Assembly: GCA_022842905.1 (NCBI GenBank)
Contig: JALHOS010000010.1
Span: 1-45,593 of the forward strand
Source of the DNA: Myxococcaceae bacterium
GTDB lineage: Bacteria; Myxococcota; Myxococcia; Myxococcales; Myxococcaceae
Reading direction: 5' to 3'
DNA length: 45,593 nt
Shown here: piece by piece, positions 4,670-20,331 of the stretch
Layout of the letters: every line of letters starts with the position of its first letter
How positions within the stretch are numbered: the stretch's first letter is position 1
Notes under the pieces: generated by a model
Told to the model about the DNA's origin: nothing
Seen by the model: the letters and a program-made list of their open reading frames with translations, nothing else
Database searches by the model: none
Program-made: the position numbers and the translations under genes

Positions 4670-5485
4670 ATGGCTCACGAGAAGGACCAAAGCGCTCAGT
4701 CCGACGAGCACAACGCCCGCGGCATCGAGCTGGCGGATCGCGGCTGGCTGGACGAGGCGATCAAGGAATTCAAGCGCGCCATCGAGCTCGATCCGTCCAG
4801 CGCCCACGCGCACGACAATCTCGCCACCGTCTACAAAGAGAAGAAGCTCTTTCGGCAGGCGCTCGAGGAGTACCTCAAGGCCATCGCCCTCGAGCCGGAC
4901 AGCGCGACCGCCCACTACAACCTCGGCTGCTTCTTGTCCGCGCACGGCAACGAGTTCGCGATCGCGCAGTACAAAGAGGCGATCGAGCTGGAGCCGGACT
5001 ACCCGGACGCGCACCTCAACTTGGGCTTGTCCTACGCGGACGACGGCCGCATGGACGAGGCGATCAACGAGCTGCGCACGGCGATCGAGCTCGATCCTCG
5101 CGACGCGTTCCCGCGCCACGAGCTGGCGTCCCTGATGATGGACGAAGGCGACTTCCGCGGCGCGATCAGCCAGCTCAAGGACGTCGTGCGGCTCAACCCC
5201 GGCGGCTTCGACGGCTGGTTGGATCTGGGCATTTGTTACGCGCAGAAGGGCTTCTACGCCGAGGCCGAGAAGGCCTACGCGAAGGCCAAAGAGCTCAACG
5301 CCGACGACCTGTTGCTCACGTACAACCAGGCAGCCCTGTACGCGCTGTGGAACCGCCCGAAGGACGCGATCGAGCACCTCAAGGCCAGCATCGCCAAGGA
5401 CGGCCAGCGGGTGCGGAGTTGGCTGAGGACGGACCCCATGTTCGACGGCCTCAAGGGCGACCCTGACTTCGAGTCGGTGCTCTAA
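4670..5485 (+). CDS. Tetratricopeptide (TPR) repeat protein
   Basis: This 271-residue protein has no signal peptide or membrane segment and consists almost entirely of tandem 34-residue TPR units. About six full units can be read, with the usual pattern of W/L-G-Y-A-F-A-P positions (for example LDEAIKEFKRAIELDP, MDEAINELRTAIELDP). The C-terminus ends in a short acidic tail after WLRTDPMFDGLKGDPDF, a motif common at the end of cytoplasmic TPR proteins. It is a likely protein-interaction scaffold; the partner is unknown. The CNNM gene begins 4 bp after the stop, so the two are probably cotranscribed. Confidence 0.9.
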   Translation: MAHEKDQSAQSDEHNARGIELADRGWLDEAIKEFKRAIELDPSSAHAHDNLATVYKEKKLFRQALEEYLKAIALEPDSATAHYNLGCFLSAHGNEFAIAQYKEAIELEPDYPDAHLNLGLSYADDGRMDEAINELRTAIELDPRDAFPRHELASLMMDEGDFRGAISQLKDVVRLNPGGFDGWLDLGICYAQKGFYAEAEKAYAKAKELNADDLLLTYNQAALYALWNRPKDAIEHLKASIAKDGQRVRSWLRTDPMFDGLKGDPDFESVL

Positions 5486-5489
5486 GCCC

Positions 5490-6845
5490 ATGGGCTCCGA
5501 AGGGGTCGCGCTCGTCGGCGCGCTGTTGTTGGTCCTCGCGAACGGCTTCTTCGTCGCGGTCGAGTTCGCGCTGGTGAAGGTGCGCACCACGCAGCTCGAG
5601 GCGCTCGCCGAAGAAGGCCGGCCGGGCGCGGTGCAGGCGCTGGTCATGCGACGGCAGCTCGACACGTGGCTGTCCGCCTCGCAGGTCGGCATCACGCTCG
5701 CGTCGCTGGCCCTCGGGTGGGTCGGCGAGCCCGCTTTCCACCACCTCATCGAGCCGGTCTTCCTGCGCGCGGTCGGCGACGACGAGTCCGTGCGCGCTAT
5801 CGCCCGAACGGCGAGCTTCGTGCTGGCGTTCGGGATCATCACCGCCCTCCACATCATCGTGGGCGAGCAGGTCCCCAAGATGCTGGCGATCTCCAAGGCC
5901 GAGCAGACGGCGCTGACGCTCGCCTGGCCGATGCGGATCTTCTACGTGGTCTTCTTCCCGGTCATTTGGCTGCTCAACGCGGGAACGCGCGGCGTGCAGA
6001 GCTTGCTGGGGCTCGCGCCGCACGCGGGCTCCGAAGCCCACGACGCGATGACCGAGCAGGAGTTCAAGGTGATCCTGTCGTCGTCGGTGGAAGCCGGCGC
6101 CCTCGAGGCGTCACGCGCCGAGCTGCTCGAGCGCGCGCTGAGCATGATGGAGAAGACCGCGCGTCAGGTGCTCGTCCCCCGCTCGCAGATGAAGGTGCTC
6201 GATCACGACAGCAGCATGGACGAGAACCTGGCGACGGCGCTGTCGGCGGGGCACACGGTGCTGCCGGTGGTGCGTGGCTCCCTCGACCGCGTCGAAGGGC
6301 TGGTCAACGTCAAGGACATGTACCGGCTCGCCATGTCGGGGCAGCTCAAGTCGCTCTCGCAGGTGCAGGGGCCGGTGCTCTTCGTGCCCGAGAACATCAC
6401 GCTCGAGCGGCTGCTCGCGGAGTTCAAGCGCCGGAACAAGCAGGTCGCGGTGGTGGTCGACGAGCACGGCGGCACGTCGGGCATGGTGACGCTGGCCGAT
6501 CTCGTCGCCGAGCTCGTCGGCAAGGTCGCCGAGCTGGGGCGCACCGTGGCGCAGGTGCAGACGCTGCCCGGCGGGCGCCTCGAGCTGCCCGGCGCCGCGC
6601 AGCTGGACGATCTGGGGCACACGCTCGAGCTCGAGTTCGACGTCGATCAGAGCGTCGTCACCACCATCGCCGGGTATCTCATGGCCAAGCTCGGCCGCGT
6701 CCCGGTGACCGGCGACGTCTGGGTGCGAGGCGCCTACCGCTTCCTGGTCACCAAGACCGACGGGCCGCGGGTGATGACGGTGCGCATCGAGCCGACGACC
6801 GCGGTGCCGGTGCGCGCTTCACCTCCGCACCCGCCGCTGGTCTGA
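5490..6845 (+). CDS. CNNM/CorC (HlyC) family membrane protein with CBS pair
   Basis: The 451-residue protein has a DUF21/CNNM transmembrane domain (segments near residues 6-27, 62-82, 107-128 and 142-164) with the family's conserved VGEQVPKMLAI motif. A tandem CBS pair follows (about 225-345, including VVVDEHGGTSGMVTLADLV), then a CorC_HlyC C-terminal domain (about 360-440). Members are linked to Mg2+ or Co2+ efflux/homeostasis; the older name hemolysin is misleading. Length and domain order are complete. It sits 4 bp behind the TPR gene and ends 5 bp from the convergent MutS-like gene. The exact substrate cannot be deduced from sequence alone. Confidence 0.92.
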   Translation: MGSEGVALVGALLLVLANGFFVAVEFALVKVRTTQLEALAEEGRPGAVQALVMRRQLDTWLSASQVGITLASLALGWVGEPAFHHLIEPVFLRAVGDDESVRAIARTASFVLAFGIITALHIIVGEQVPKMLAISKAEQTALTLAWPMRIFYVVFFPVIWLLNAGTRGVQSLLGLAPHAGSEAHDAMTEQEFKVILSSSVEAGALEASRAELLERALSMMEKTARQVLVPRSQMKVLDHDSSMDENLATALSAGHTVLPVVRGSLDRVEGLVNVKDMYRLAMSGQLKSLSQVQGPVLFVPENITLERLLAEFKRRNKQVAVVVDEHGGTSGMVTLADLVAELVGKVAELGRTVAQVQTLPGGRLELPGAAQLDDLGHTLELEFDVDQSVVTTIAGYLMAKLGRVPVTGDVWVRGAYRFLVTKTDGPRVMTVRIEPTTAVPVRASPPHPPLV

Positions 6846-6850
6846 AGCGT

Positions 6851-8668
6851 TCAGCTTTCGGTGGTCGGCACCGGCACGCCGGCCTGCCTCAGCACCTCGA
6901 GCGCGTTCGTCGTCTGCACCACGCCGGGCCGCAGCGCGTAGTCGAAGTGCATTTGCCCCTGAGTCATGTGATCGCGGAAGTGCACGTTCTCCACGTGCTC
7001 CGGCCGCTCCTGCGCCAGCTCACAGAGCGACAGATCGTGCGTGGTGATCGCCCCGGCGCTGCCCGCGTCGAGCAGCAGCCGCAGCACGTGCTTGGACGCG
7101 ATCTGCCGTTCCTTGGTGTTGGTGCCCATGAACAGCTCGTCGAGGAAGAACAGGCAGGGCAGGGGAAGCTTGGCGGCGTCGAGCAGCGTGCGGATCCGCT
7201 GCACCTCCGCGTAGAAGTACGACACGCCGCGCTCGAGCGAGTCCTTGACGCGCATGCTGGTGAGCACCTGCACGCGTGACAGCCGCAGCTGCCCCGCCGC
7301 CACCGGCAGCCCCGCCAGCGCGAGCACGGCGTTGAGGCCCATGGCGCGCATCAGCGTGGTCTTGCCGGACATGTTGCTGCCGGTGATGACCAGGGCGCTC
7401 CCCGGGCCCCGCAGTCGGACGTCGTTCGCGACGGGCGACTCGAGCAGCGGGTGGCGCAGCTGCGTGGCCTCGAAGGTGAGCGGCGCTTCGACGAGCTGGG
7501 GGTAAGTAAAGTCCGGGCGCTCGAACGCGAAGCCGGCGAAGGACGAGAGCGCCTCGAGCTGCGCGAGCGCTTCGAACCACTTGCGCACGCCGCGGCCGTT
7601 GGCGACGCGCCAGGCCTCGACGCGGAAGAGGACCAGAATGTCCCAGAGCGTCAGCAGGTTGATGAGCGGGTGCAGCTGCCCCGACTGCCGCAGCGCCGCG
7701 AAGCCCATGAGCCGGGCGAACTGCTGGAGCCGTTCGGGCACGCTTCCCTGGCCGGGCTCGAGGCCTCGCTGGAGCGCCTGCAGGTAAGGCTCGGAGAGCC
7801 GCTCGTGGGCGATCGCGTGGAACGTCTCTTCGAAGCGCACGAAGCCCCGCTCGCCCAGCTGGAGTGCTTCGTACATGCGGCCAAGCGGCCTGCGTGTGAG
7901 CAGCACGACGACGAGCTGCACCCCGAGCAGCGCGAGGAAGGGGAGGTTGCCGACCACGTCCATGGCCGACAGCAGGCCCAACACCACCGTCGCGGGCGCG
8001 AGCAGGTGCGCCAGCGGGTACGCCCAGCGGATCGCCCCGAGCCCCGAGTCGGCCTCCGCCCACGCGATGAAGCGCGACGGGTCGGCCTTCTGCGCGCCGG
8101 CCATGCGCGCTTCGGTGATCAGCGCCTGCCGAAAGTCGAGCAAGGGCGTCAGCTCGCGCACCGCCGCCTGGCGCTCGGCGATCGCCGCGACGGAGGGGGC
8201 GGCCTGTTTGAGCCACGCTGCGAGCTGCGTTTCCCCCGCCAGCGTCCCCGTGTCGTCGATTCGCTGGAACACACTGCCCTGGCCGAAGACGTCGAGATCC
8301 GCCGCGTACAGGTGACCGTCGCCGAGGTGTTTGACGCCCGTCGACGGGAACGTATGCCACTGGCCGTCGAGCCGACCCAGGCCGCGATCGTTGAGCGCCT
8401 TCTTCACCGTCGCCTTCGCTTCGTCATGGAGCACGCGCGCGTGGATCACCGCGAGGACGAGGTAGGCGCCGAAACACGCCAGCGCGCCGAACAGCCCTGC
8501 CCGAGGGAGGCGCTCGAAGATCACGAGCAGGAGGATCGCCAAGAGCCCCAGGAACGCCACCGTGCGCAGGTTCGCCAGCCGCGCACCGGCTCGATCCAAC
8601 GCCACCAACCGCACCGCCGCCGCCGCGCTGCGCTCTGCGTATGCCCGCCTCGCTTCACCCTCACGCAT
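6851..8668 (-). CDS. Membrane-anchored MutS-like ATPase
   Basis: The protein has 605 residues from the ATG at 8668. The frame is open further upstream to 8923, but that extension is Arg/Pro-rich and looks like noncoding sequence. Two hydrophobic segments lie near residues 36-53 and 57-76, and another pair near 235-275. The C-terminal third is a MutS domain V ATPase: Walker A GSNMSGKT at 430-437, Walker B CLFFLDELF with D510-E511, then a GTNTKER signature and TTHD. The mismatch-recognition and connector domains of MutS are absent, so this is not MutS1. Related membrane MutS-like proteins occur in myxobacteria and Bacteroidetes with no established function. It converges on the CNNM gene. Confidence 0.9.
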   Translation of the reverse strand: MREGEARRAYAERSAAAAVRLVALDRAGARLANLRTVAFLGLLAILLLVIFERLPRAGLFGALACFGAYLVLAVIHARVLHDEAKATVKKALNDRGLGRLDGQWHTFPSTGVKHLGDGHLYAADLDVFGQGSVFQRIDDTGTLAGETQLAAWLKQAAPSVAAIAERQAAVRELTPLLDFRQALITEARMAGAQKADPSRFIAWAEADSGLGAIRWAYPLAHLLAPATVVLGLLSAMDVVGNLPFLALLGVQLVVVLLTRRPLGRMYEALQLGERGFVRFEETFHAIAHERLSEPYLQALQRGLEPGQGSVPERLQQFARLMGFAALRQSGQLHPLINLLTLWDILVLFRVEAWRVANGRGVRKWFEALAQLEALSSFAGFAFERPDFTYPQLVEAPLTFEATQLRHPLLESPVANDVRLRGPGSALVITGSNMSGKTTLMRAMGLNAVLALAGLPVAAGQLRLSRVQVLTSMRVKDSLERGVSYFYAEVQRIRTLLDAAKLPLPCLFFLDELFMGTNTKERQIASKHVLRLLLDAGSAGAITTHDLSLCELAQERPEHVENVHFRDHMTQGQMHFDYALRPGVVQTTNALEVLRQAGVPVPTTES

Positions 8669-9213
8669 GATGTGCGGGGCAGGCTGCCCGAACCTGGACA
8701 GTGCTGCACCTGTCGTGAAGCGGAGATCGCCGCGCTTGGTCGCAGCGCGCTGCTCGAGCCGGCCACGCGGATCGGCGGGGGTGGGCTGCCCACGGCCAGC
8801 GCGTTGCTGTACGGTGCGGCTCGTTCGGTCGTCTCTGGCACGGGGAGACGAGGAAGCGGCCGCCGGCGACGGCGAGCCTTCGAAGGACCCGGAGCGCCGA
8901 TCATGTCCAGCCACGTGAGCCAATGCAGGCGGCAGCCGGCCGCTTCGCTGACCTCAATGAGGTCGCCGAGCCGGCAAATGTCAGTGGACTTCGCGCTCGC
9001 GGCGGAGGGCTTGCGCGTCGCCGTCCTGCCTGTAACGCGAGCTGGCGATCGTGTGCGACAACCTCAGAGATTTCCTCACGACGATGTCTTGATGACCTGC
9101 GTTGATTCTGGGAGCGCCGTGTGCGAAAAGCCACGGCCAAATCAAAGGCTTGCAGTCGCCTCGTGCCGGGTGGCGCTGCTTCGAAGCGGAACAGACACCA
9201 TGAAGGAGCTTGC
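8669..9213 (+). other. 545-bp intergenic region between divergent genes
   Basis: There is no supportable gene here. It must carry the promoters for the MutS-like gene (leftward) and the surface operon (rightward). A 15-bp perfect dyad lies at 8950-8964. The right end holds a strong ribosome binding site (AAGGAG, 9203-9208) for the gene starting at 9214. Open frames crossing this stretch are Arg-rich and lack family resemblance. Confidence 0.6.
8950..8964. promoter_or_regulatory. Candidate operator: 15-bp perfect dyad
   Basis: The sequence GACCTCAATGAGGTC has 7-bp inverted arms around one central base. It lies in the divergent intergenic region, 282 bp upstream of the MutS-like start and 250 bp upstream of the 9214 start. 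Its size suits a dimeric regulator. No regulator gene lies next to it, and chance occurrence is possible. Confidence 0.3.
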
Positions 9214-12200
9214 ATGAGCCGTCCCTTTTTGAAGTTCGCGCTGGGCGTGTTTGCGCTGCAGCTGGCTGGGTGCAGTGGGTGTGGCACGGAGGGAGGTCTC
9301 ATTCGCGAGGGTGAGGTGCGGTACGTCGTCGAAGAAGGCGGCGTCCAGCAGATCAAGACGGAAGGGCTCTACGAGTTCCAGCCGACGGCCATGGGCACCA
9401 CGGAGCCGCCCACCCTCAAGCTGATCGTCCAGAACACCGGCCTGGGCACGCTGACGATCGCGGCGCTGGAGAAGGCGTCCGGCGACGCGGTCAAGCTGGG
9501 CGAGGAAGGCGACGCCAACCCGGTCTTCACGGTCGACTACGCGAAGGGCGCGGAGATCGCGGCGGCCGATCGCAGAGAGTTCGACATCCGCTTCACGCCT
9601 CCGGTGACGCCCAACCAGCGCGTCGTCGAGCACGAGGTCAAGCTCAAGCTCAACGCGACCAACGTGACGTCGGACTCGCAGCTGACCAACATCACGATCC
9701 GCGGCCGGGCGATCTCCGGCGAGTGTGAGCTGCCGGACACCATCGACTTCGGCGGCGTGAACGTCATGAACCGCTCCGGCAAGTCGGTCGTGTTCGCCAA
9801 CGCCGGTATCGTCGACGCGGAAGCGCTCGCCGATCGCATCATGTCGGCCAGCGGCGACGCGCCGTTCACCTACAAGTCCGATTCTCCGAACGGCGAGTTC
9901 ATCGTCGCGCCGGGCCGCGAGCGGACGGTGTCGATCGAGTTCAGCCCCACGGAGAGCCGCGACTACGTCGCCAACGTGAAGATGCGCCGCGCCAAGGGCT
10001 GCCCGACCAAGACGGTTCGACTGCTCGGCACCGGCGTCGCGTCCTGCATCTCGTGGCGTGCGAGCCCGACGGACGACATGACCAACTTCTCCCGCGTCGA
10101 CTTCGGCTATGTGCAGCCGCAGGCGACGGCCACCGGCGAAGTGCAGTTTCGCAACGTGTGTGCGTTCCCGGTCACGATCGCCAGCCTGTCCGTCACCGAA
10201 ACCACGTTCCGCGTCACCGCTGCGGCACCGAACGATCTGACGCAGATCACCGTGCCGCCCGGGTCCCGCGACATGATGCAGGCGCTCGTTCCGGGCACGG
10301 CGACCGTCGGGGTGTCCTTCCGCCCGATCGCGCTCGGCACCCGCTCGGGTCAGCTGCGCGGCACGACGCCCCTGCTGAACCAGGCGAGCATCGCCGTCTC
10401 CATGCGCGGCGCGGGTGGCGGCCCCGACATCGACGTGCTGCCGGCGACGTTGAACTTCGGTCGCGTCGGCTACTTCGCGGGCGCGAACCCCCCGGCCTTC
10501 GTTCAGCGCAAGATCACGATCCGCAACGTCGGTACGCAGTCCAACCCGCCGGGTGATCCGCGGGCGAACCTGCGGCTGCTCGAGGTGGGCGGCAAGAAGT
10601 ACTTCTCGGTGCGCGCGGTGTCCGGTGCGACCGAAGCCGAGCTGTGCGTGGGTGAGTGGGACAACACGAACCAGACTTGCAAGAACGACCTGCCGCTGAC
10701 GGGCGCCGGAGCGTACGACCCCGTCAACGGCCTGGTGGCCTCGGGCGCGCGCGCGGTGCTCGACGTGCCGGTGCGGGTGATCCCCGCGAGCCTCGGCATG
10801 AAGGTGTGGGAAGTCACCGTCTTCTCGAACGACCCCGACGAAGCCGAGTTCCGCTTCCAGGTGCGCGCCGACGCGCAGCTGCTGCCGCCGTGCCGCTTCG
10901 ACATCATCCCGCGGCAGGTGAACTTCGGCGTCGTCACGCCGCCGCAGAGCAAGGACCTGTCCTTCAAGATCGTCAACCTGGGCACGACGCCGACGGAGAT
11001 TTGCTACATCAGCGGCATGGAGATGGCGGCCGGCTCGGATGCGATCTTCTCGCTCCCGGCAGGCCAGGTCGACCAGCTCGAGATCGCGCCGAACAGCGAG
11101 CAGATCGTGCTCGTGCGCGCGTGGCCGCAGACCGCGCTCCAGGGCAACACGCCGACGAACGTGAACGCCCAGGTGACGTTCAACGTGTCGAGCAACACGA
11201 ACCCGCAAGGCGTCGTCGGCTTGTCGGCGACCCTGGCCAACACGTGCCTGACGATCTCGCCCGCCGACCTGAACTTCGGCACGGTGCAGAAGGACTGCAA
11301 TTCCCCGCCGCGGACCTTCCAGGTCTACAACACGTGCAGCACGGCCGTGCAGATCAACAGCTACCGCATGGCCGCTGAGTCTCGCGTTCCAAACGGCACA
11401 GGCGTGTGCGCGAACATGGCCGGCTGCCCCGAATTCCAGATCGTCAGCGTGCCGTCGAACTTCGTCGGCAGCCTCGCGCCCGGCCAGACGCGGTCCTTCG
11501 AACTCAAGTACCGGCCGTACAACTTCGGGCCGGACACCGGCGCCTTCGCGATCAACGTCACGCAGGGGGGCATGCCGGTCGACTACCTGGTCACGCTCCG
11601 TGGCGCGGGCGACATGACAGGCTCGAACGAAGACGTGTTCCGCCAGGACTCCAAGCCCAAGGCCGACATTCTGTTCGTCGTCGACAACTCCTGCTCCATG
11701 TCTGAAGAGCAGCAGTTCCTCGGGACCAACTTCACGGCGTTCCTGCGCTACGCGGTCGGCAACCAGGTCGACTTCCAGATCGGCGTGACGACGACGGACG
11801 ACGATTCCGGCGGCGAGCAGGGGCGGCTGGTGGCCAGCCCGGCGGGCGTGAAGATCTTCAAGCCCGCGACCCCGAACCTCGAGCAGCAGTTCAACGCGGT
11901 CGTGGTGGGGCTGGGGACCAACGGATCGGCCAGCGAGACGTGTCTGTCGCCAGCGGTCAAGGCGCTGACCGCCCCGCTCATCACCGACCCCGCAGCCAAC
12001 GCCGGCTTCCTGCGCGCGGACGCGGTGCTCGCGGTGGTCTGCATCACCGACGAGCTCGAGCAGGCGCCGAACCCCAACTCGTTCTACGTGAACCAGCTGC
12101 TCAACGTGAAGGGTGTCCAACGCGCCAACATGTTCAGCTACAACGTGGTCGGCCCGTTCGTCGCCGGCGCGAGCTGCATCTTCTCGAGCGACTTCGACGG

Positions 12201-12540
12201 ACCTCCAACCGGCCGCCACACCGCCGCGGTGCAGGCCATGAACGGCATCAAGGAGAACATCTGCACCCAGAACTGGGCCGTCGCGCTCGAGGCGCTCGGC
12301 AAGGTCGCCTTCGGGTTCCGGACGAACTTCTTCCTGACGGCGCGGCCTGAGGACGCCGGGAACATTCACGTCTTCATCGACAACGTCGAGCTCGACCCCG
12401 TCGACGAGTCGCGTGGCACGCCGGGCACTCCGGTGTGGAGCTACGATCCGGTCGGCAACGCCGTGGTGTTCGAGCCGCTGTACGTGCCGGAGCCGGGCAA
12501 GTCGCTGACGATTCGCTACCAGGTCGCCTGCATCCCATAA
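9214..12540 (+). CDS. ASH-domain (choice-of-anchor D) lipoprotein with C-terminal VWA domain
   Basis: The 1108-residue protein starts at ATG 9214, chosen for the AAGGAG five bases upstream and the lipobox LAGC (Cys20). The body is a string of immunoglobulin-like ASH/choice-of-anchor D domains, each marked by an FGxV strand (IDFGGV, VDFGYV, LNFGRV, VNFGVV, LNFGTV). From residue about 816 a von Willebrand A domain follows, with a MIDAS motif D824-N-S-C-S828, so metal-dependent ligand binding is likely retained. The extreme C-terminus ends in a strand resembling that of the second VWA lipoprotein at 35681-36775. It is probably anchored at the outer membrane. It is the first gene of the rightward surface operon; the next start is 97 bp downstream. 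Confidence 0.9.
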   Translation: MSRPFLKFALGVFALQLAGCSGCGTEGGLIREGEVRYVVEEGGVQQIKTEGLYEFQPTAMGTTEPPTLKLIVQNTGLGTLTIAALEKASGDAVKLGEEGDANPVFTVDYAKGAEIAAADRREFDIRFTPPVTPNQRVVEHEVKLKLNATNVTSDSQLTNITIRGRAISGECELPDTIDFGGVNVMNRSGKSVVFANAGIVDAEALADRIMSASGDAPFTYKSDSPNGEFIVAPGRERTVSIEFSPTESRDYVANVKMRRAKGCPTKTVRLLGTGVASCISWRASPTDDMTNFSRVDFGYVQPQATATGEVQFRNVCAFPVTIASLSVTETTFRVTAAAPNDLTQITVPPGSRDMMQALVPGTATVGVSFRPIALGTRSGQLRGTTPLLNQASIAVSMRGAGGGPDIDVLPATLNFGRVGYFAGANPPAFVQRKITIRNVGTQSNPPGDPRANLRLLEVGGKKYFSVRAVSGATEAELCVGEWDNTNQTCKNDLPLTGAGAYDPVNGLVASGARAVLDVPVRVIPASLGMKVWEVTVFSNDPDEAEFRFQVRADAQLLPPCRFDIIPRQVNFGVVTPPQSKDLSFKIVNLGTTPTEICYISGMEMAAGSDAIFSLPAGQVDQLEIAPNSEQIVLVRAWPQTALQGNTPTNVNAQVTFNVSSNTNPQGVVGLSATLANTCLTISPADLNFGTVQKDCNSPPRTFQVYNTCSTAVQINSYRMAAESRVPNGTGVCANMAGCPEFQIVSVPSNFVGSLAPGQTRSFELKYRPYNFGPDTGAFAINVTQGGMPVDYLVTLRGAGDMTGSNEDVFRQDSKPKADILFVVDNSCSMSEEQQFLGTNFTAFLRYAVGNQVDFQIGVTTTDDDSGGEQGRLVASPAGVKIFKPATPNLEQQFNAVVVGLGTNGSASETCLSPAVKALTAPLITDPAANAGFLRADAVLAVVCITDELEQAPNPNSFYVNQLLNVKGVQRANMFSYNVVGPFVAGASCIFSSDFDGPPTGRHTAAVQAMNGIKENICTQNWAVALEALGKVAFGFRTNFFLTARPEDAGNIHVFIDNVELDPVDESRGTPGTPVWSYDPVGNAVVFEPLYVPEPGKSLTIRYQVACIP

Positions 12541-12578
12541 CTGGTGCATTGAGCTGCAAGCTGTGTTTATGGCCCGCC

Positions 12579-12610
12579 GCATGAGTCGCCCCCCCGCGGG
12601 TGGCTCATGC
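12579..12610 (+). terminator. Stem-loop between the VWA gene and the MYXO-CTERM gene
   Basis: Arms 12579-12591 and 12598-12610 form a 13-bp stem (11 Watson-Crick pairs, two G-T wobbles) with a 6-base loop. The short T-rich run TCTTTCTT follows 8 bases later rather than directly, so this is at best a weak intrinsic terminator. It lies just upstream of the GGAG of the next gene and could instead set relative expression inside the operon by stabilising the upstream mRNA end. Confidence 0.4.
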
Positions 12611-12637
12611 GACGTGCGTCTTTCTTGGAGAAACCCA

Positions 12638-13744
12638 ATGCGGTCACTTGTTGCGCTCCTCGTGGGTGGGCTGCTGAGCACCGGGGCTTGGGCTCAGACC
12701 TCCGTCGGCTTCGACTTCGTCGAGGGGACGGAGCCGTACGTTTCGCTCAGCGGCGCCACGCCGCTGACGTTGGGTTCGGGCGGCGGCTCGCACACGGACG
12801 AAGGTGGCTGGCTGCTGCCGCTCGCCTTCGCGAACGGCTTCAGCTACCGCGGCCAGACGTATTCGCAGGTCTTCATCAGCGTGAACGGTTTCATCAGCTT
12901 CGGCACGCCGCCGGCTGGCTGCACGATCGCGCCGGGGCTCACGTCGACGTACTGCCGCACCTATGATCTCGCGGGCGCCGGCCGCATTCCGAGCTTGTCC
13001 GAGCCCAACGGCATGATCGCGCCGTTCTTCGACGACCTGGAGACGGGCTCCGGCTCGCTGCAGATCGTCAACTCGGCCGCGGGCTTCGCCGTGGAGTGGG
13101 TCGGCGTTCGCACGTTCTTCGGAACGAACGCGATGACGATGCAGGTGCGGCTGTCTCCGACGGGGGAAATCGCGGTTGCGTACGGCCCGTTCTCGGGCAC
13201 GGGCGGCAGCGGAATCGCCGGCTTCGAAGACGCGCTCGGCAACGGAGCGTCCTTTCTGCGGCTCTCTGGCGCGTCGGGCGCCTGTACTTCGGCCAATCAA
13301 GCGAACTGCTGTTCGTCCGCGGGTTCGAACTGCGACCTGGGCGACTGGGTCCCCAACCGGATCATTCGCTTTGGCGTCTTCGCGGACCCGGACATCGAGG
13401 TGGTGCGGGTGGACACGGCGAACCAGCGCCTCGACGCAGACGGCGGGCTGAGCTTCGACGTGCAGCCGACTTTCCGAAACAACGGGCAGCGCGGCGCGTC
13501 GGGCTGGGAATGGTCGGCGTTCCTCTCGCAGGACACGTCGTTGGACTTCGACGGCGGTGACGTGCTGGTTCACCACTCGGGCCCGACGGACGCGGGTCCG
13601 CTCGCCCTCTTCAGCGAAACCGGCGCGGCGTTTCGCGAAGGGCCGCTCGCTCAAGGCGCTTACTACGTCATCGTCCGGGCTGACGACGGGCTGGACCCCG
13701 ACGGTGGTCTGCCCGACGGCGGGCACACCGGCCGGCTCGTGTGA
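12638..13744 (+). CDS. N-terminal part of a nidogen-like/CARDB surface protein (frame broken at its end)
   Basis: The 368 residues start at ATG 12638, with GGAG seven bases upstream, and carry a Sec signal peptide ending GAWAQ. A beta-rich domain follows with the NGFISFG and IAPFFDDL motifs of nidogen-like secreted proteins. From about residue 250 a CARDB-type domain begins but is cut off just before its conserved final strand. That missing strand (motif FNNINYSVTP) is encoded immediately downstream in another frame. The stop at 13742 overlaps the next frame's GTG by 4 bp. Removing one GT from the GTGTG at the junction would rejoin the frames. Most likely this and the next frame were one gene, or still are if the shift is a sequencing error. 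Confidence 0.7.
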   Translation: MRSLVALLVGGLLSTGAWAQTSVGFDFVEGTEPYVSLSGATPLTLGSGGGSHTDEGGWLLPLAFANGFSYRGQTYSQVFISVNGFISFGTPPAGCTIAPGLTSTYCRTYDLAGAGRIPSLSEPNGMIAPFFDDLETGSGSLQIVNSAAGFAVEWVGVRTFFGTNAMTMQVRLSPTGEIAVAYGPFSGTGGSGIAGFEDALGNGASFLRLSGASGACTSANQANCCSSAGSNCDLGDWVPNRIIRFGVFADPDIEVVRVDTANQRLDADGGLSFDVQPTFRNNGQRGASGWEWSAFLSQDTSLDFDGGDVLVHHSGPTDAGPLALFSETGAAFREGPLAQGAYYVIVRADDGLDPDGGLPDGGHTGRLV

Positions 13745-16700
13745 TCACCGAAGTCACCAAGTTCAACAACATCAACTACAGCGTCACGCCCATCGTGATC
13801 GGCCTCGACTTGGCCGCTTCGAACCTCAGCGGTGCCGCGACCGCCGCGCCGGGCCAGCCCGTCGCCGTCACCTTCCGAATCGACGACAAGGGCACGACCC
13901 CGGCGCCGGAGTTCGGCTACCGCATTTCCCTCGTGACGCGCACCGAGGACGGCGGCACGCCGACGATGACGGCGGACTCCGGCATCACGCTGGCGTCGGG
14001 CACCATCGCCTTCGACGGAGGCACCACCGCCCTGGCGACGATCAACCCGACGCTGCCGGGCCTCGTGGCGCAGGGCGAATACGTCTACGCCCTGCAGGTC
14101 GACCCGACCAACCAGGTCGTCGAGGCGCTCGAGACCAACAACGTCCGCTTCTCGCTCAACGGCCTGTCCGTACGCCGCCCCGATCTCCAGTTGGCCGGCG
14201 CGAGCCTGGTCGAGCCCTCGTCCGGGTCTCCGATCGACGTGGCTCGCTTGGGGGAACGGGCAACCTTCGCCGTGCGCCTGACCAACCCCACGGGGGTGCC
14301 GACCGCCGGCTTCGCGATCGGCCTGGTCATGTCGAATGACTCGACCCTGTCGCTGCTGTCCGACACCTACCTGGGTGAGTTCGGCGTCGACGGAGGCCTC
14401 CCGGGCATTGGCGCTTCGGACGGCGGTGTCACCAGCATCGAGGCGACGATCCCCGTGTCCTTGCCGCTGACGAGTCGGCCGGACGGCGGCGGCGTGCCGC
14501 TCGCCACGGGGCAGTACTACTTCTTCGCGGTCGCCGACATTCGCGGTGCGGTCAGCGAGCTCGACGAAGGCAACAACAACCGGCTCATTGGACCCGTGCG
14601 ACTGACCGCGCCGGGCCCCGACCTCGCGGTGACCACGGTGCAGGTCGCCTCGGCCGCCGGGGTGGGAGAGACGATTCCCGTCTTCCGCACGCTGCGCAAC
14701 GTCGGCAACGTGGACGCGCCGGCCGCGGCGTATCGCTACTTCGCTTCGGCCAACAACATCATCACCCCGGACGACGTGCCGCTCGAGATCGTCACCGGCG
14801 GAACGACGAGCATGTCCGGCTCGGTGACGTTGGCGCGGGACGGGTCGAGCTCGGCGACGGATCTGGTGCGCCTGCCCGCGCTCATGCCACCCGGGACGTA
14901 CTTCGTCGGCTGCATCATCGATCCCGCAGGCCAGGTCGCGGAGCTCGACGAGACGAACAACGGTCGCGCGTCGGCCTCGATCCCCGTGGCCGCGTCCGCG
15001 TTGCGGATCAACGCCGTCCAGCTCCCCGACGCGACGCTCGGCGTGCCTTACCTGTTCCGGTTGTCGGCGACGGGAGAGAGCGGCGCGTCGAGCTGGTCGG
15101 TGGTCGATGCCCAGGGCGCGCTGCCCGCCGGTCTGGCGCTGGCGACGGACGGGACCTTGAGCGGCACGCCGACGGGAACCCAGGCGGCCGTCGCCGCGTT
15201 CACGGTCGTCTTGTCGAATGGTGGCCGGCAGGCCCAGGCGCGCGTGGCCATGCGCGTGCTGCCTCAGTCCGCGCAGCTCGACATCACCACGACGAGCCTC
15301 CCGGCGATCGTCAACGCGACCTCGACGGTCGTGAACTCGAACTTGGGCGCGGCCGGCGGCATTCGCCCGTACACGTGGCGCGTCGCCTCGGGGGTCCTGC
15401 CGAGCGGGCTGGTGCTGACCAGCGAAGGTGTCCTCACCGGCTCTCCGCGCGCGGGCTCGCCTGACGGAGCCACCAACCTCACCGTGGAGGTCCGCGACGT
15501 GACCGGCGCGACTGCGCGGCGGGTGCTGGCGGTCCGTTTGGTCGCGGCCGGTGGACCGGTCATTGCCGCGTCGTCGCTGCCGATCGGCGTGGTGAACGGT
15601 GACTACGTCAAGGACATCGGCCTCGCGGGTGCCGCGAACGACAGCTACTTCTGGTCGGTCACGGGGCTGCCGAGCGGGCTGACCACTCGAACGTTCTCCA
15701 ACATCATCACGATCGAAGGGCGACCGACGCGAGCGGGCAACTTCGCGGTGCGCGTGAGCGTCACGGATTCGCGCGGCCGCACGGACGTCGTGGACTACGT
15801 GCTTCGCGTATACGCGTCGACGTACCGCCTCGCGGCGCCCGCAGAGCTCGCGGCGGCGTTCCGACGAGGTCAAGCCGTGACCGGCGCTTTCTCCGTGACT
15901 CCGGCGTCGAGCGTGACGTATCGGGTCGTCTCAGGACAGCTGCCGCCGGGCGTGACGCTCGCGACGGATGGGACCCTGTCCGGGACCGTGGCGGATGAGG
16001 CGAATCTCGTGAACTACAACTTCGTGGTCGAGGCGGCGGATTCGGCCGGCGCCACCGGTCTGGGCCCGTTCGTGCTGAAGGTGGAAGCGCCTCCCGTCGC
16101 GTCGATGGGGTGCTCGACGAGCGGGGCCGTCGGTGGCGTGCCGCTGCTCTTCGCCGCGCTCGGGCTGCTGCGCCGGCGCCTCTCGCGGCAGCGACGTCGG
16201 GCCGGGGCGGCCGGTGTCCTCGCGACGCTCTTGCTCGTGCCTCTCGCGAGCCAGGCGCAGGTGTCCTACCAGGTGGACGGGCCCAACGCGCTGACCGGCG
16301 CGTACACGCCGCTGGCGACCGGGACTGGTGCGACGGCGATCGCCGCGGGTGACGCGGTGACGCTGCCCTTCAACTTCGACTTCTTCGGGGTGGCGACCAA
16401 CGTCGTGGCGGTCTCGCGCAACGGCTACCTGGCGCTGGGTGGCTCGGCGACGAGCACGTCGTCGAACCAGCCGATTCCGCACACCGACAGCTCGAGCGCG
16501 AACGTCATCATCGCGGCGTGGTGGGACAACCTGCTGAGCACCACGACGGCGCCCGCGACCCAGCTGCTGTATCAGACGCGCACCAGCGGTACCGGTGAGC
16601 GCTTCGTCGTGTTCGAGTGGGCCAACGTCCGCCCCAACAGCACCAGCGCGGCGCCGTTCAGCTTTCAGGCGCACCTCTTCGAAGGCACCGGGCAGATCCG

Positions 16701-18942
16701 CTTCGTGTACGGCGGGACGGCGCCGGCGACCGCATCGGCCTCCATTGGCGCTCAGCGGGCGCTCGGGTCCGGGGTCGGGGCGCTCGGGTGCACGACGACC
16801 GCTGGCTGCAGCCCGACCGATTTTCCCCGCAACGCGTCGATCGACCTGCTGCTGCCCCCGGAGCTGCGCGTGGCCTCGCTGTCGCTGGACCAGACCGGCT
16901 TCGCGGGCGTCGGCCTGCGCGCCGCGGCGAACGTGCGCAACAGCGGTGGTCGCCCCGCGACGAACGTGGGCGTGCGGTTCTACCTGTCGACGACGACCAG
17001 CTTCGACCGCATGAGCGCGGTGGTGATGTCTCCTGACTGCACGGTGCCCTCCCTCGCGGCGAACCAGGAAGCGACGACCGCGGTGTGCGCTCCGGTGATC
17101 CCGACGGGGACCGCCGTCGGTCGGTACTACGTGTTCGCCGAAGTCGACCCGCTCCAGCAGTTCACCGAGCAGAACGAGAACAACAACGTCTCGACTCCGG
17201 TCGCGCTGGACGTGGGCATGGCGATGCCGGACTTGAGCGTGACGAACGTGACGGCCCCGACCATGGCGGCCCCCGGCGCCAGCGTCAGCGTGGCGCGCAC
17301 CTTGAGCAACGTAGGCAACGCGCCGTCGGCTGGGTTCAGCTACTCGTACTACCTGTCCGAGAACAACGTGGTCACCATCTCCGATCGCTTCCTCGCGCCG
17401 ACGAAGACGTCTGCGGCGCTCACTCCGGGCACGCCGGACATGGGCAGCGACATGGTGACGCTGCCGTCGGATCTGATCCCCGGGAACTACTGGATCGGGG
17501 TGTGCGTGAACATCGACGGGTCCATGGCGAACGCGCAGTTCGCGGCGACGGAGATCACCGTCGGCAACAACTGCGCTGGCACTGCCTCGGCGATCGCGGT
17601 TACCGCCGGTTCGGTCGCGGTCGCGACGATGACGCTCCCGGCCGGTGTGAAGCACGCTCCCTACGGTGTCCGGCTCCAGGCGACGGGCGGGAGCGGCGTG
17701 TACGCGTGGACCGTCGGGGCTGGCACGCTGCCGTTGGGCATGACCCTCACGGCCACTGGCGATCTCGTCGGGACTCCGTCGGCGACGGGCACGTTCAGCT
17801 TCGAAGCGCGCGTCGCGAGCAACTCGCAGATGGCCAGCCGCATGCTCAGCCTGATGATCGCCGACGGGAACCTCCCGCTGGTGATCGTCGATCAGGAGCT
17901 CTCGGCGGCGGAGTTCGGCCGCGACTACCGGGGCCAGCTCGTCGCCGTGGGCGGCCGGCCGCCGTACGCCTGGTCGCTCAAGGCGGGGGCGCAGCTGCCG
18001 GCGGGGTTGGGCCTGGCGAGTGACGGGCGGATCGAAGGCCGGGCCTCGGAAGGTGGAGAGGTGAGCTTCACGGCCGTCGTCACCGACGCGGCGAACGCGA
18101 CGGCGGAGAAGCCGCTGCGGCTGAAGGTCGTCAACCCGATCACCCTGGCGGTGGGCACGTCGGCGTTGCAGCGAGGCTTCGTGCGCGCGGAGTACCAGCA
18201 GCGGCTGATCGCCGTCGGCGGCCGGGCCCCGTACACCTGGTCCGTGGTGAGCTTCCAGAAGCTGCCCGAGAACGCGACGGAGGCGCCCGGGCCGGTCGAC
18301 AACAAGCTTCCGCCGTTCGACGAGTTCGGCCTGCAGATCATGTCGGACACCACGGCCACCTTCCTTTCCGGCACGCCCAAGAAGGCGGGCCTGTACGCCC
18401 TGACGCTCAACGTGCGCGACGGGTCGAGCGCGGACGACACGGCGTCGTACGTGTTGCAGATCAGCTACCGGGAGCCGCTGGCGATCACCACGACGCTCCT
18501 GCCCGACGCCTTCACCGGTCAGCAGTACTCGGCGGGGCTGTCGCACAACGCGTCGCGCGACGCGGTGGTGAAGTTCCAGGCCCCGTGCAAGTCGGCCGAC
18601 GGCGCCGAAGACAAGTGTGTGTGCGTGCGCAAGCCCACCGCGGACGGCACCTTCGCCTGTGAGCTGGCGCCCACGCTGGAGCAGCTGCCCGCCGGCCTCG
18701 AACTCGACGAGTCGGGGGCGATCATCGGCTCGCCGACGGCGGAGCCGGGGACCTACGCGTTCTTGGTCAAGGCCGTCGATGCGTCGGGGCGGCAGGACAC
18801 GCGCAGCCTCTCGATTCGTGTGCGCAACGACTTCGCCGTGCAGCGCTCCGGGTGTTCGACGGGCGGCGCGGGTCTGGCTTTGTTGGGTGCGCTCTCTTGG
18901 GTGGGTCTGGCCCTTCGTCGCCGCGGCGCTCGCCGGGGCTGA
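13741..18942 (+). CDS. Fused MYXO-CTERM surface proteins: C-terminal part of one and the whole of a second paralog
   Basis: This 1733-codon frame starts at a GTG without a convincing ribosome binding site. Residues 1-~420 are CARDB domains (each ending in an E-x-N-N-type strand), and ~420-785 are four Ig-like (He_PIG) domains with LPAGL-type motifs. Residues 789-812 form a MYXO-CTERM tail: GCS, a hydrophobic stretch, then LLRRR. With no stop, the frame runs on into a second signal-peptide-like segment (RRR, hydrophobic core, cleavage near A839 in SQAQ), a second nidogen-like domain, two CARDB domains, four He_PIG domains and a terminal MYXO-CTERM tail (GCSTGGAG to LALRRRGARRG). No ATG lies in the junction. 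The frame therefore equals two tandem paralogs fused in frame. Confidence 0.85.
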   Translation: MITEVTKFNNINYSVTPIVIGLDLAASNLSGAATAAPGQPVAVTFRIDDKGTTPAPEFGYRISLVTRTEDGGTPTMTADSGITLASGTIAFDGGTTALATINPTLPGLVAQGEYVYALQVDPTNQVVEALETNNVRFSLNGLSVRRPDLQLAGASLVEPSSGSPIDVARLGERATFAVRLTNPTGVPTAGFAIGLVMSNDSTLSLLSDTYLGEFGVDGGLPGIGASDGGVTSIEATIPVSLPLTSRPDGGGVPLATGQYYFFAVADIRGAVSELDEGNNNRLIGPVRLTAPGPDLAVTTVQVASAAGVGETIPVFRTLRNVGNVDAPAAAYRYFASANNIITPDDVPLEIVTGGTTSMSGSVTLARDGSSSATDLVRLPALMPPGTYFVGCIIDPAGQVAELDETNNGRASASIPVAASALRINAVQLPDATLGVPYLFRLSATGESGASSWSVVDAQGALPAGLALATDGTLSGTPTGTQAAVAAFTVVLSNGGRQAQARVAMRVLPQSAQLDITTTSLPAIVNATSTVVNSNLGAAGGIRPYTWRVASGVLPSGLVLTSEGVLTGSPRAGSPDGATNLTVEVRDVTGATARRVLAVRLVAAGGPVIAASSLPIGVVNGDYVKDIGLAGAANDSYFWSVTGLPSGLTTRTFSNIITIEGRPTRAGNFAVRVSVTDSRGRTDVVDYVLRVYASTYRLAAPAELAAAFRRGQAVTGAFSVTPASSVTYRVVSGQLPPGVTLATDGTLSGTVADEANLVNYNFVVEAADSAGATGLGPFVLKVEAPPVASMGCSTSGAVGGVPLLFAALGLLRRRLSRQRRRAGAAGVLATLLLVPLASQAQVSYQVDGPNALTGAYTPLATGTGATAIAAGDAVTLPFNFDFFGVATNVVAVSRNGYLALGGSATSTSSNQPIPHTDSSSANVIIAAWWDNLLSTTTAPATQLLYQTRTSGTGERFVVFEWANVRPNSTSAAPFSFQAHLFEGTGQIRFVYGGTAPATASASIGAQRALGSGVGALGCTTTAGCSPTDFPRNASIDLLLPPELRVASLSLDQTGFAGVGLRAAANVRNSGGRPATNVGVRFYLSTTTSFDRMSAVVMSPDCTVPSLAANQEATTAVCAPVIPTGTAVGRYYVFAEVDPLQQFTEQNENNNVSTPVALDVGMAMPDLSVTNVTAPTMAAPGASVSVARTLSNVGNAPSAGFSYSYYLSENNVVTISDRFLAPTKTSAALTPGTPDMGSDMVTLPSDLIPGNYWIGVCVNIDGSMANAQFAATEITVGNNCAGTASAIAVTAGSVAVATMTLPAGVKHAPYGVRLQATGGSGVYAWTVGAGTLPLGMTLTATGDLVGTPSATGTFSFEARVASNSQMASRMLSLMIADGNLPLVIVDQELSAAEFGRDYRGQLVAVGGRPPYAWSLKAGAQLPAGLGLASDGRIEGRASEGGEVSFTAVVTDAANATAEKPLRLKVVNPITLAVGTSALQRGFVRAEYQQRLIAVGGRAPYTWSVVSFQKLPENATEAPGPVDNKLPPFDEFGLQIMSDTTATFLSGTPKKAGLYALTLNVRDGSSADDTASYVLQISYREPLAITTTLLPDAFTGQQYSAGLSHNASRDAVVKFQAPCKSADGAEDKCVCVRKPTADGTFACELAPTLEQLPAGLELDESGAIIGSPTAEPGTYAFLVKAVDASGRQDTRSLSIRVRNDFAVQRSGCSTGGAGLALLGALSWVGLALRRRGARRG

Positions 18943-18954
18943 AAGTCGATCGTC

Positions 18955-20331
18955 ATGTTGAAGAACTTCATGCTGTGTGTGGTCACCGCGATGGGCACGG
19001 CGCTGGTGACCGTGGCGTGTTCCGGCGGGCAGATGGATCAGTGCGTGGCCAAGAACGTGCGCTGCGCGGAGCCGCTCGCGTGCGATCCGGGTGATGGCGT
19101 GTGCAAGTGCGGCGGCCGCGGAGGCGTGGCCTGTCCGACGGACTTCGTGTGCGACCCGGTGAAGAACACCTGCTTGTCGACCAAGTGTGTCGTCGACCGG
19201 CGCCCGGTGGACTGCAGCGCCCAGGCTGGCACGAGCTGCGACGTCAGCGACGGCGCGTGCAAGTGCGGCGGCACCGGCGGCATGGTGTGCGGCGCGAACG
19301 AGGTGTGCGACCCCGCGAGGAAGTCCTGCACGCCGCAGCAGAGCTGCACGAGCCAGACCTGTCCGCTCAATCAGGTGTGCAGCCCGGCGACGGGCCGCTG
19401 CTCGTGTGGTGACGCCCCGTGTGGTGCGGGGCGAACCTGCACGCTGGTCAACGGCAACCCGACCTGCACGGCGGACCAGTGCTCCGGCGTCGCGTGCACC
19501 GGGTCGAATGTGGGCGACGGCGGCGCGCGTGAAGGCAACGTGTGCGCGGCGGCCAGCGGCATGTGTGAGTGCAACGGCGTCGTGTGCAGCCAGGGCCAAG
19601 CCTGCGCCTGTCCGGCCGGGGCTGATGCAGGGTGCGCGCAGGGGCTTCGCGCCTGTCGGCCCAGCTCGCTGTGTGCCGGGGTCAACTGCGGTGGAGGCAT
19701 GGTGTGCGACTTCGCCGACGGCCTCTGCAAGTGTGGTGGACCGGGCGGGGTGGCCTGCGCCGCGAACCAGATCTGCAACCTGGGCCCGCCCGCGCAGTGC
19801 CAGGGCGGCCAGCAGTGCACGTTGCCCGACGGCGGCGCGCGGCTGTGCCCCGGCGGGACCAGCTGCGATCCGGAAGACGGTCGGTGTCGGTGTGGCGGTC
19901 GTGGCGGGCAGATCTGCGCCGCGGCGGTCAGCGTGGACGGTGGCGGCGGGACGCCAGCCGAGGTCTGCGTGCTGTCCCCGATCCAGACGGCCTGCCGCCA
20001 GCCGTGTGATCCGCGGCAGGCGTCGGCGGACTGCCCCATGGGCCAGTTCTGCTACTACGACTCGTCGGCCGCGACCCCGGTCGCCTACTGCGCCGCGCAG
20101 CCCGGCACGCCTCGTCCGGCCGGCGAAGGCTGCACGTCGCCCACCGCCTGCTTCGCCTCCGGGAGGTCGCTGCACTGCAACGGGCTGGTGACGGGTGCCA
20201 CGGGCATTTGCCGCGCGTACTGCGACGTCGCGTCTGGCTCGAGCGGCTGCATTCAGGTGCCCACCGCGCAGAACTGCGTGCAGATCATCGGCGCGCCTGC
20301 GGGCTACGGCTACTGCCAGTCAACGCAGTGA
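18955..20331 (+). CDS. Cys-rich repeat lipoprotein
   Basis: This 458-residue lipoprotein begins 12 bp after the MYXO-CTERM gene and is almost certainly cotranscribed. The signal ends in a lipobox-like TVACS (Cys near residue 22). The mature part is built of EGF-like Cys-rich units of about 45-60 residues with the recurring pattern C-D-x-x-D-G-x-C-K/R-C-G-G-x-G-G followed by further Cys. Four clear copies and several diverged ones can be read. Such units are disulphide-stabilised stalks or adhesion modules. No enzymatic motif is visible. It is probably exposed on the outer membrane and works with the other surface proteins of this operon. Confidence 0.88.
   Translation: MLKNFMLCVVTAMGTALVTVACSGGQMDQCVAKNVRCAEPLACDPGDGVCKCGGRGGVACPTDFVCDPVKNTCLSTKCVVDRRPVDCSAQAGTSCDVSDGACKCGGTGGMVCGANEVCDPARKSCTPQQSCTSQTCPLNQVCSPATGRCSCGDAPCGAGRTCTLVNGNPTCTADQCSGVACTGSNVGDGGAREGNVCAAASGMCECNGVVCSQGQACACPAGADAGCAQGLRACRPSSLCAGVNCGGGMVCDFADGLCKCGGPGGVACAANQICNLGPPAQCQGGQQCTLPDGGARLCPGGTSCDPEDGRCRCGGRGGQICAAAVSVDGGGGTPAEVCVLSPIQTACRQPCDPRQASADCPMGQFCYYDSSAATPVAYCAAQPGTPRPAGEGCTSPTACFASGRSLHCNGLVTGATGICRAYCDVASGSSGCIQVPTAQNCVQIIGAPAGYGYCQSTQ

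Follow-up and report, generated by a model that had tools for sequence, protein, structure and literature searches.

The tripartite MYXO-CTERM tag, which consists of a cysteine motif, a helix, and an arginine cluster, is recognized by the myxosortase MrtX, which cleaves MYXO-CTERM proteins in a Cys-dependent manner (Guo, Haft and Wall 2025, PMC11980579). The same study noted rare open reading frames with internal tags, proposed that such tags are processed, and gave a single example, MXAN_5598, suggested to be a fusion of two genes (PMC11980579). MXAN_5598 is composed of an adhesin, an internal MYXO-CTERM tag, an outer-membrane barrel, and an OmpA domain, and it is listed in the proteomics of outer-membrane vesicles of M. 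xanthus, in which its two halves were not distinguished (PMC4158809). The sortase, rhombosortase, and archaeosortase systems likewise employ a C-terminal tripartite tag and a membrane-associated enzyme; however, their tag motifs and enzymes are different, and the tag is normally located at the very end of the protein.

To our knowledge, polyproteins are rare in bacteria. The fbcH gene of Bradyrhizobium encodes a membrane polyprotein of cytochromes b and c1, and the internal signal sequence of its second part is cut by signal peptidase. It is a single case, and the two parts are joined without a C-terminal sorting tag or a sorting protease. In viral envelope polyproteins such as Gn-Gc of bunyaviruses, a membrane anchor directly precedes the signal peptide of the protein that comes after it, and signal peptidase makes the cut, but this takes place in the eukaryotic secretory pathway and without a sorting-tag protease.

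The locus described here shares the tripartite tag with the MYXO-CTERM/MrtX system, and the genome that contains it has an MrtX gene. It goes beyond the published description of internal tags (PMC11980579), which does not mention a signal peptide positioned right behind the tag, a conserved fused frame, versions with a lipobox, triple fusions, or a phylum-wide spread. The architecture of MXAN_5598 resembles the largest class of junctions reported below (29 loci), as judged from its published description, whereas the pair in the window is unrelated to it and consists of two CARDB/He_PIG paralogues. No such organization was described in the literature on MYXO-CTERM and polyproteins that we searched, with most subscription papers outside the search. 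One internal tag (MXAN_5598) was already published, whereas neither the paired signal peptide nor the wide spread was found in that literature.

Organization of the junction between proteins A and B

The window, a stretch of 45,593 nucleotides from a fragmented draft genome of a Myxococcaceae bacterium (667 contigs), contains an open frame of 1733 codons without a stop (13741–18942). All features of the window described here are on the plus strand. The frame joins protein A to its paralogue, protein B, through a junction (16099–16263) in which Cys791, a hydrophobic helix, and an arginine cluster are followed in frame by a second signal peptide. The junction residues are GCSTSGAVGGVPLLFAALGLLRRRLSRQRRRAGAAGVLATLLLVPLASQA|QVSYQ, with the predicted cut by signal peptidase shown as a bar. 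The translation of positions 15961–16485 (...MGCSTSGAVGGVPLLFAALGLLRRRLSRQRRRAGAAGVLATLLLVPLASQAQVSYQ...) is free of stops and, together with the family match of the tag, bears out the claim of the earlier note that an internal MYXO-CTERM signal is fused in frame to a second signal peptide. The third-position GC content across the junction is 0.92, and the coding composition is normal.

The internal MYXO-CTERM tag (16111–16170) contains the invariant Cys791 and a transmembrane helix, and its Arg-rich end includes the invariant Arg811. When scanned alone, the tag scores 21.2 bits against the cut-off of 15.85 of the NCBIfam family TIGR03382 (GC_trans_RRR, MYXO-CTERM); the scan of the full-length protein misses it, and the match is obtained only with the tag excised. 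Its score against TIGR03901 is 17.6, with a cut-off of 20, and two homologous internal tags exceed the cut-offs of both families. An AlphaFold model contains a helix at model residues 62–79, corresponding to the tag segment, whereas the signal-peptide stretch was predicted with low confidence and without a second helix. Since about 920 codons follow the tag, which is thus not at the extreme C-terminus, it is an internal variant and not a classical MYXO-CTERM tag.

The Arg-rich loop RRRLSRQRRR (16165–16206) is without an in-frame start codon and serves both as the end of the tag and as the n-region of the following signal peptide. The second signal peptide (16207–16257) is of the signal-peptidase I type, with the h-region VLATLLLVPL and the site S-Q-A839|Q840, which has small residues at positions −3 and −1. 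It differs from an ordinary signal peptide in being internal to the frame, behind a loop that lacks a start codon. The predicted N-terminus of protein B after the cut is QVSYQVDGPNALTGAYTPLATG....

Conservation and age of the fusion

The search covered 60 relatives and then 145 genomes of the order, and a match spanning the junction was found in 28 genomes, as counted from the match table. None of the 28 has a stop at the junction, and complete A-B frames have about 2,050–2,150 residues. The relatives with names are drafts of uncultured members of the Myxococcaceae, the Archangiaceae, and other groups of Myxococcota. The earlier note had listed relatives that uniformly carry two separate genes as an observation that would refute its reading, and the opposite was found; its suggestion of a recent loss of the stop codon is rejected by the junctions of all comparable genomes. 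The conserved open junction instead favours its other suggestion, a polyprotein, the cleavage of which we infer.

Cys791, Arg811, and Ala839 are invariant in a 12-row alignment of relatives, while the residues around them vary, and the cysteine and arginine are still invariant in an alignment of 19 rows. The window and 18 relatives have the same succession of a cysteine, a hydrophobic stretch, an arginine cluster in a short loop, and a second hydrophobic stretch. A signal-peptidase I type site with alanine at position −1 was identified by eye in all of them.

In a tree of the separated halves, the A halves of families f1, f2, f3, and f9 cluster together (SH-aLRT 86), as do the B halves of f1, f2, and f3 (SH-aLRT 97), with a similar internal branching; L055, L076, and the B halves of f9 were not firmly placed. 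The congruence of the A-half and B-half trees indicates that the fusion is old and is consistent with a single ancient duplication and fusion, after which the two halves were inherited together. The closed genome G040 has separate paralogous genes of the A/B kind (L056), which may lie at a locus other than the orthologous one. Locus L076 contains three A/B-like paralogues in tandem (5027–8551 and 8555–14938), the last two of which are fused. Its A and B halves cluster together in the tree on long branches, and it is possibly, although we are unsure, a product of an independent duplication and fusion.

In two other families, the frame also passes from a MYXO-CTERM tag into the downstream gene. 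In G036 (L051, 2534 residues), the second tag continues as SSCQSG...LLAIRRRKLAQVTVALAFIATLGTGC, which is a signal peptide with a lipobox, and leads on to protein C, which is encoded by a separate gene in the window. In G038 (L055), a MYXO-CTERM tag is likewise joined without a frame change to VAAGC and protein C. The A-B junction of L055 is also in frame, but there the two fusions are located in two overlapping open reading frames.

Junctions in unrelated proteins and across the phylum

The genome of the window encodes four unrelated proteins in which a signal peptide comes directly after an internal tag in the same frame, among the 30 best MYXO-CTERM loci (L144/L201 on C23, L155/L200 on C453, L156/L199 on C16, and L158/L198 on C58). 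In contrast, a signal peptide behind the tag was found in none of 19 rows of ordinary tails from the same genome, all of which are terminated by a stop (one gene is present twice). A profile of the junction retrieved further cases in many families, 58 of which were read. Signal-peptide features were recognized in 57 of the 58 new junctions, a count that is partly circular as the search profile includes the signal peptide.

Grouping of the junction loci by similarity yielded at least eight unrelated pairings. The largest class (29 loci) joins an adhesin to an OmpA-type protein, and is exemplified by L200, in which an Ig/TSP3 adhesin is followed by the tag, the signal peptide, and OmpA. The adhesin-OmpA pairs resemble TraA/TraB. 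An ftsZ motif was sought beside the loci of this class as a check of synteny, and none was found. The other pairings are those of repeat proteins with a second secreted protein (8), a matrixin-type protease with a small protein (7 to 8), an amidase or CarboxypepD_reg protein with a PD40 propeller lipoprotein (3), a PKD/CarboxypepD protein with a MopE-motif lipoprotein (2), a trypsin with a lipobox trypsin (2), RHS repeats with an RHS core, and a pairing with a TIG lipoprotein in a closed genome. On inspection, candidates L255–L257 were either ordinary tails or unrelated.

Two of the pairings have additional features. At L241 (G023:C239), two trypsin-like proteases are joined via MYXO-CTERM and a lipobox signal peptide, which represents a duplication and fusion as in the A-B pair. 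At L248 (G009:C65), the N-terminal RHS-repeat part ends in MYXO-CTERM, and the frame continues through a lipobox-like signal peptide into the RHS core, which is an unusual split of an RHS protein.

A scan of the phylum identified at least 81 junction matches in at least 50 of 195 Myxococcota genomes (E 1e-6), both counts being lower bounds because only the best candidates per genome were scored. There is no stop in 78 of the 81 matches, a fraction that is possibly somewhat inflated by the penalty of the profile for stops; the conservation count of the A-B junction is independent of the profile. The profile had no match at E 0.001 in 36 genomes of other phyla. Single-contig genomes are among the cases (G006, G022, G040, and G045), and errors of draft assemblies are therefore not a general cause of the fusions.

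Putative processing and alternative explanations

The junction that is stop-free in 28 of 28 genomes and recurs in many unrelated pairs indicates that some surface proteins are probably precursors cut by membrane proteases. We assign a probability of roughly three in four to the locus encoding a conserved secretory polyprotein that is cut by myxosortase and by signal peptidase I or II. Because the tag is immediately followed by a site for signal peptidase I or II, the arrangement is most simply read as a membrane hairpin that is cut on either side, and an OmpA-type partner, which must leave the inner membrane, argues for a cut. The genome of the window encodes a cognate MrtX (NF040593, 329 bits, G000:C114), and MrtX exceeds the family cut-off in 24 of the 30 genomes searched. 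MrtX may also act on the internal tag, which has no free C-terminus, as was proposed for an internal tag before (PMC11980579).

From these features, we infer a membrane topology, lipidation, two cuts, and a 1:1 release as follows. The tag helix would end on the cytoplasmic side of the membrane, where the short Arg loop would stay, and the signal-peptide helix would cross back, forming a membrane hairpin. Signal peptidase I would cut between Ala839 and Gln840 and free protein B, MrtX would cut beside the presumably lipidated Cys791 and free protein A, and the hairpin of roughly 48 residues would be discarded. A and B would thereby be made in equal numbers, each as a surface protein with a lipid anchor. 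For the second hairpin of the triple fusions, the enzyme would be signal peptidase II, which would cut at the lipobox and release an N-terminal lipoprotein.

A stop lost recently in this genome alone, an assembly error, or decay would agree with the 667-contig draft and with the frameshift of the same gene near position 13741, but the 28 comparable genomes without a stop and the third-position GC of 0.92 across the junction make such an origin extremely improbable. It is also quite improbable that B is additionally or mainly produced from its own internal translation start, so that the missing stop would matter little. The loop of L053 (G052) contains an ATG with GGAGG upstream, and some ATG, GTG, or TTG codon is present in 14 of 22 loop stretches, but the other eight, including that of the window, have none of these codons in frame. 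Independent initiation of B may occur in some lineages, but it does not explain the window, and since there is no stop at the junction, A must be read through even when an internal start is used.

A and B might, alternatively, stay joined as a single giant protein whose two ectodomains are permanently tethered to the inner membrane by the hairpin. Such a topology fits the pattern of hydrophobicity and charge, and the first segment is helical in the model. We nevertheless regard it as unlikely, as the conserved residues are those read by proteases (the cysteine and the alanine at −1) while the helices vary, some of the second segments are lipobox signals, and the OmpA-type downstream part of the largest class could not reach the outer membrane if it were tethered. 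A more plausible alternative, although one that we hold only tentatively, is compatible with the processed polyprotein and states that the fusions are real and cut but selectively neutral: a stop between two parts that are both discarded could be lost at no cost, and fused operons would accumulate without gain. The many independent pairings and the patchy distribution of each class are consistent with neutrality, whereas at least four families have retained the A-B junction, and no split orthologue was found at the locus.

Beyond the A-B locus, we consider it likely that the Myxococcota use hairpins of MYXO-CTERM and signal peptide as a general separator of polyproteins, from which unrelated pairs and triples would be released 1:1 by myxosortase and signal peptidase I or II. 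If the chains are cut, the whole phylum would employ a back-to-back sorting tag and signal peptide as a self-contained separator, and the ratio and timing of the partner surface proteins would be fixed. One chain could then give rise to a C-terminally anchored surface protein and, beside it, either a protein of the outer membrane or a lipoprotein anchored at its N-terminus. The junctions offer a way to test whether myxosortase requires a free C-terminus, and annotation that seeks the tag only at protein ends overlooks these substrates.

Start of protein A, protein B, and neighbouring genes

The N-terminal part of protein A, with the signal peptide MRSLVALLVGGLLSTGAWA|Q and the first domain, is encoded at 12638–13744 in another frame (open reading frame 12563–13744). 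Relatives with a single frame have the homologous sequence in their first ~360 residues (43% identity to L037). The remainder of A (13741–16110) contains CARDB and He_PIG (Ig-like) domains. Because relatives hold both parts in one frame, the GTG at 13741 cannot be the true start. The 1733-codon frame named in the earlier note lacks the beginning of A, which belongs to the upstream open reading frame, with its signal peptide near 12638. The frames break at 13685–13744, where the stop and the GTG overlap in GTGTGATC, and the frameshift, placed between about 13685 and 13744 by blast ranges against relatives and by the window DNA, may have arisen in the assembly or through a recent mutation. We rejected a programmed frameshift at 13741, as it is shared by no relative and no slippery site was seen. 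The relatives encode the polyprotein in a single frame, and the window does so from 13741 on; the frameshift is upstream and leaves the junction untouched.

Protein B (16258–18852) is a paralogue of A, as the earlier note had recognized: the two halves have 34% identity (E=3.9e-33), and CARDB and He_PIG are the best Pfam stretches on either side of the junction. The same note was also right about the MYXO-CTERM tail of B (18853–18942 including the stop; GCSTGGAG...LALRRRGARRG), which has the invariant Cys1705 and scores 13.9 bits, slightly below the cut-off. In contrast, the nidogen-like (NIDO) domain that it named has no Pfam match and no match among solved structures; a Foldseek search of the AlphaFold model against solved structures was empty at E 0.001.

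The fused gene is part of a conserved row that encodes a VWA-like secreted protein, A-B, the Cys-rich lipoprotein C, and an acyl-CoA dehydrogenase. The upstream neighbour (9121–12540) is a secreted protein with a VWA-like segment identified by eye (DILFVVDNSCSMSEEQ), and its homologue adjoins the fused gene in at least ten relatives. The gene of protein C, a predicted Cys-rich lipoprotein (18955–20331), starts 12 bases downstream of the A-B gene in the window. Protein C is without a Pfam match, and its homologues are present in most of the syntenic loci.
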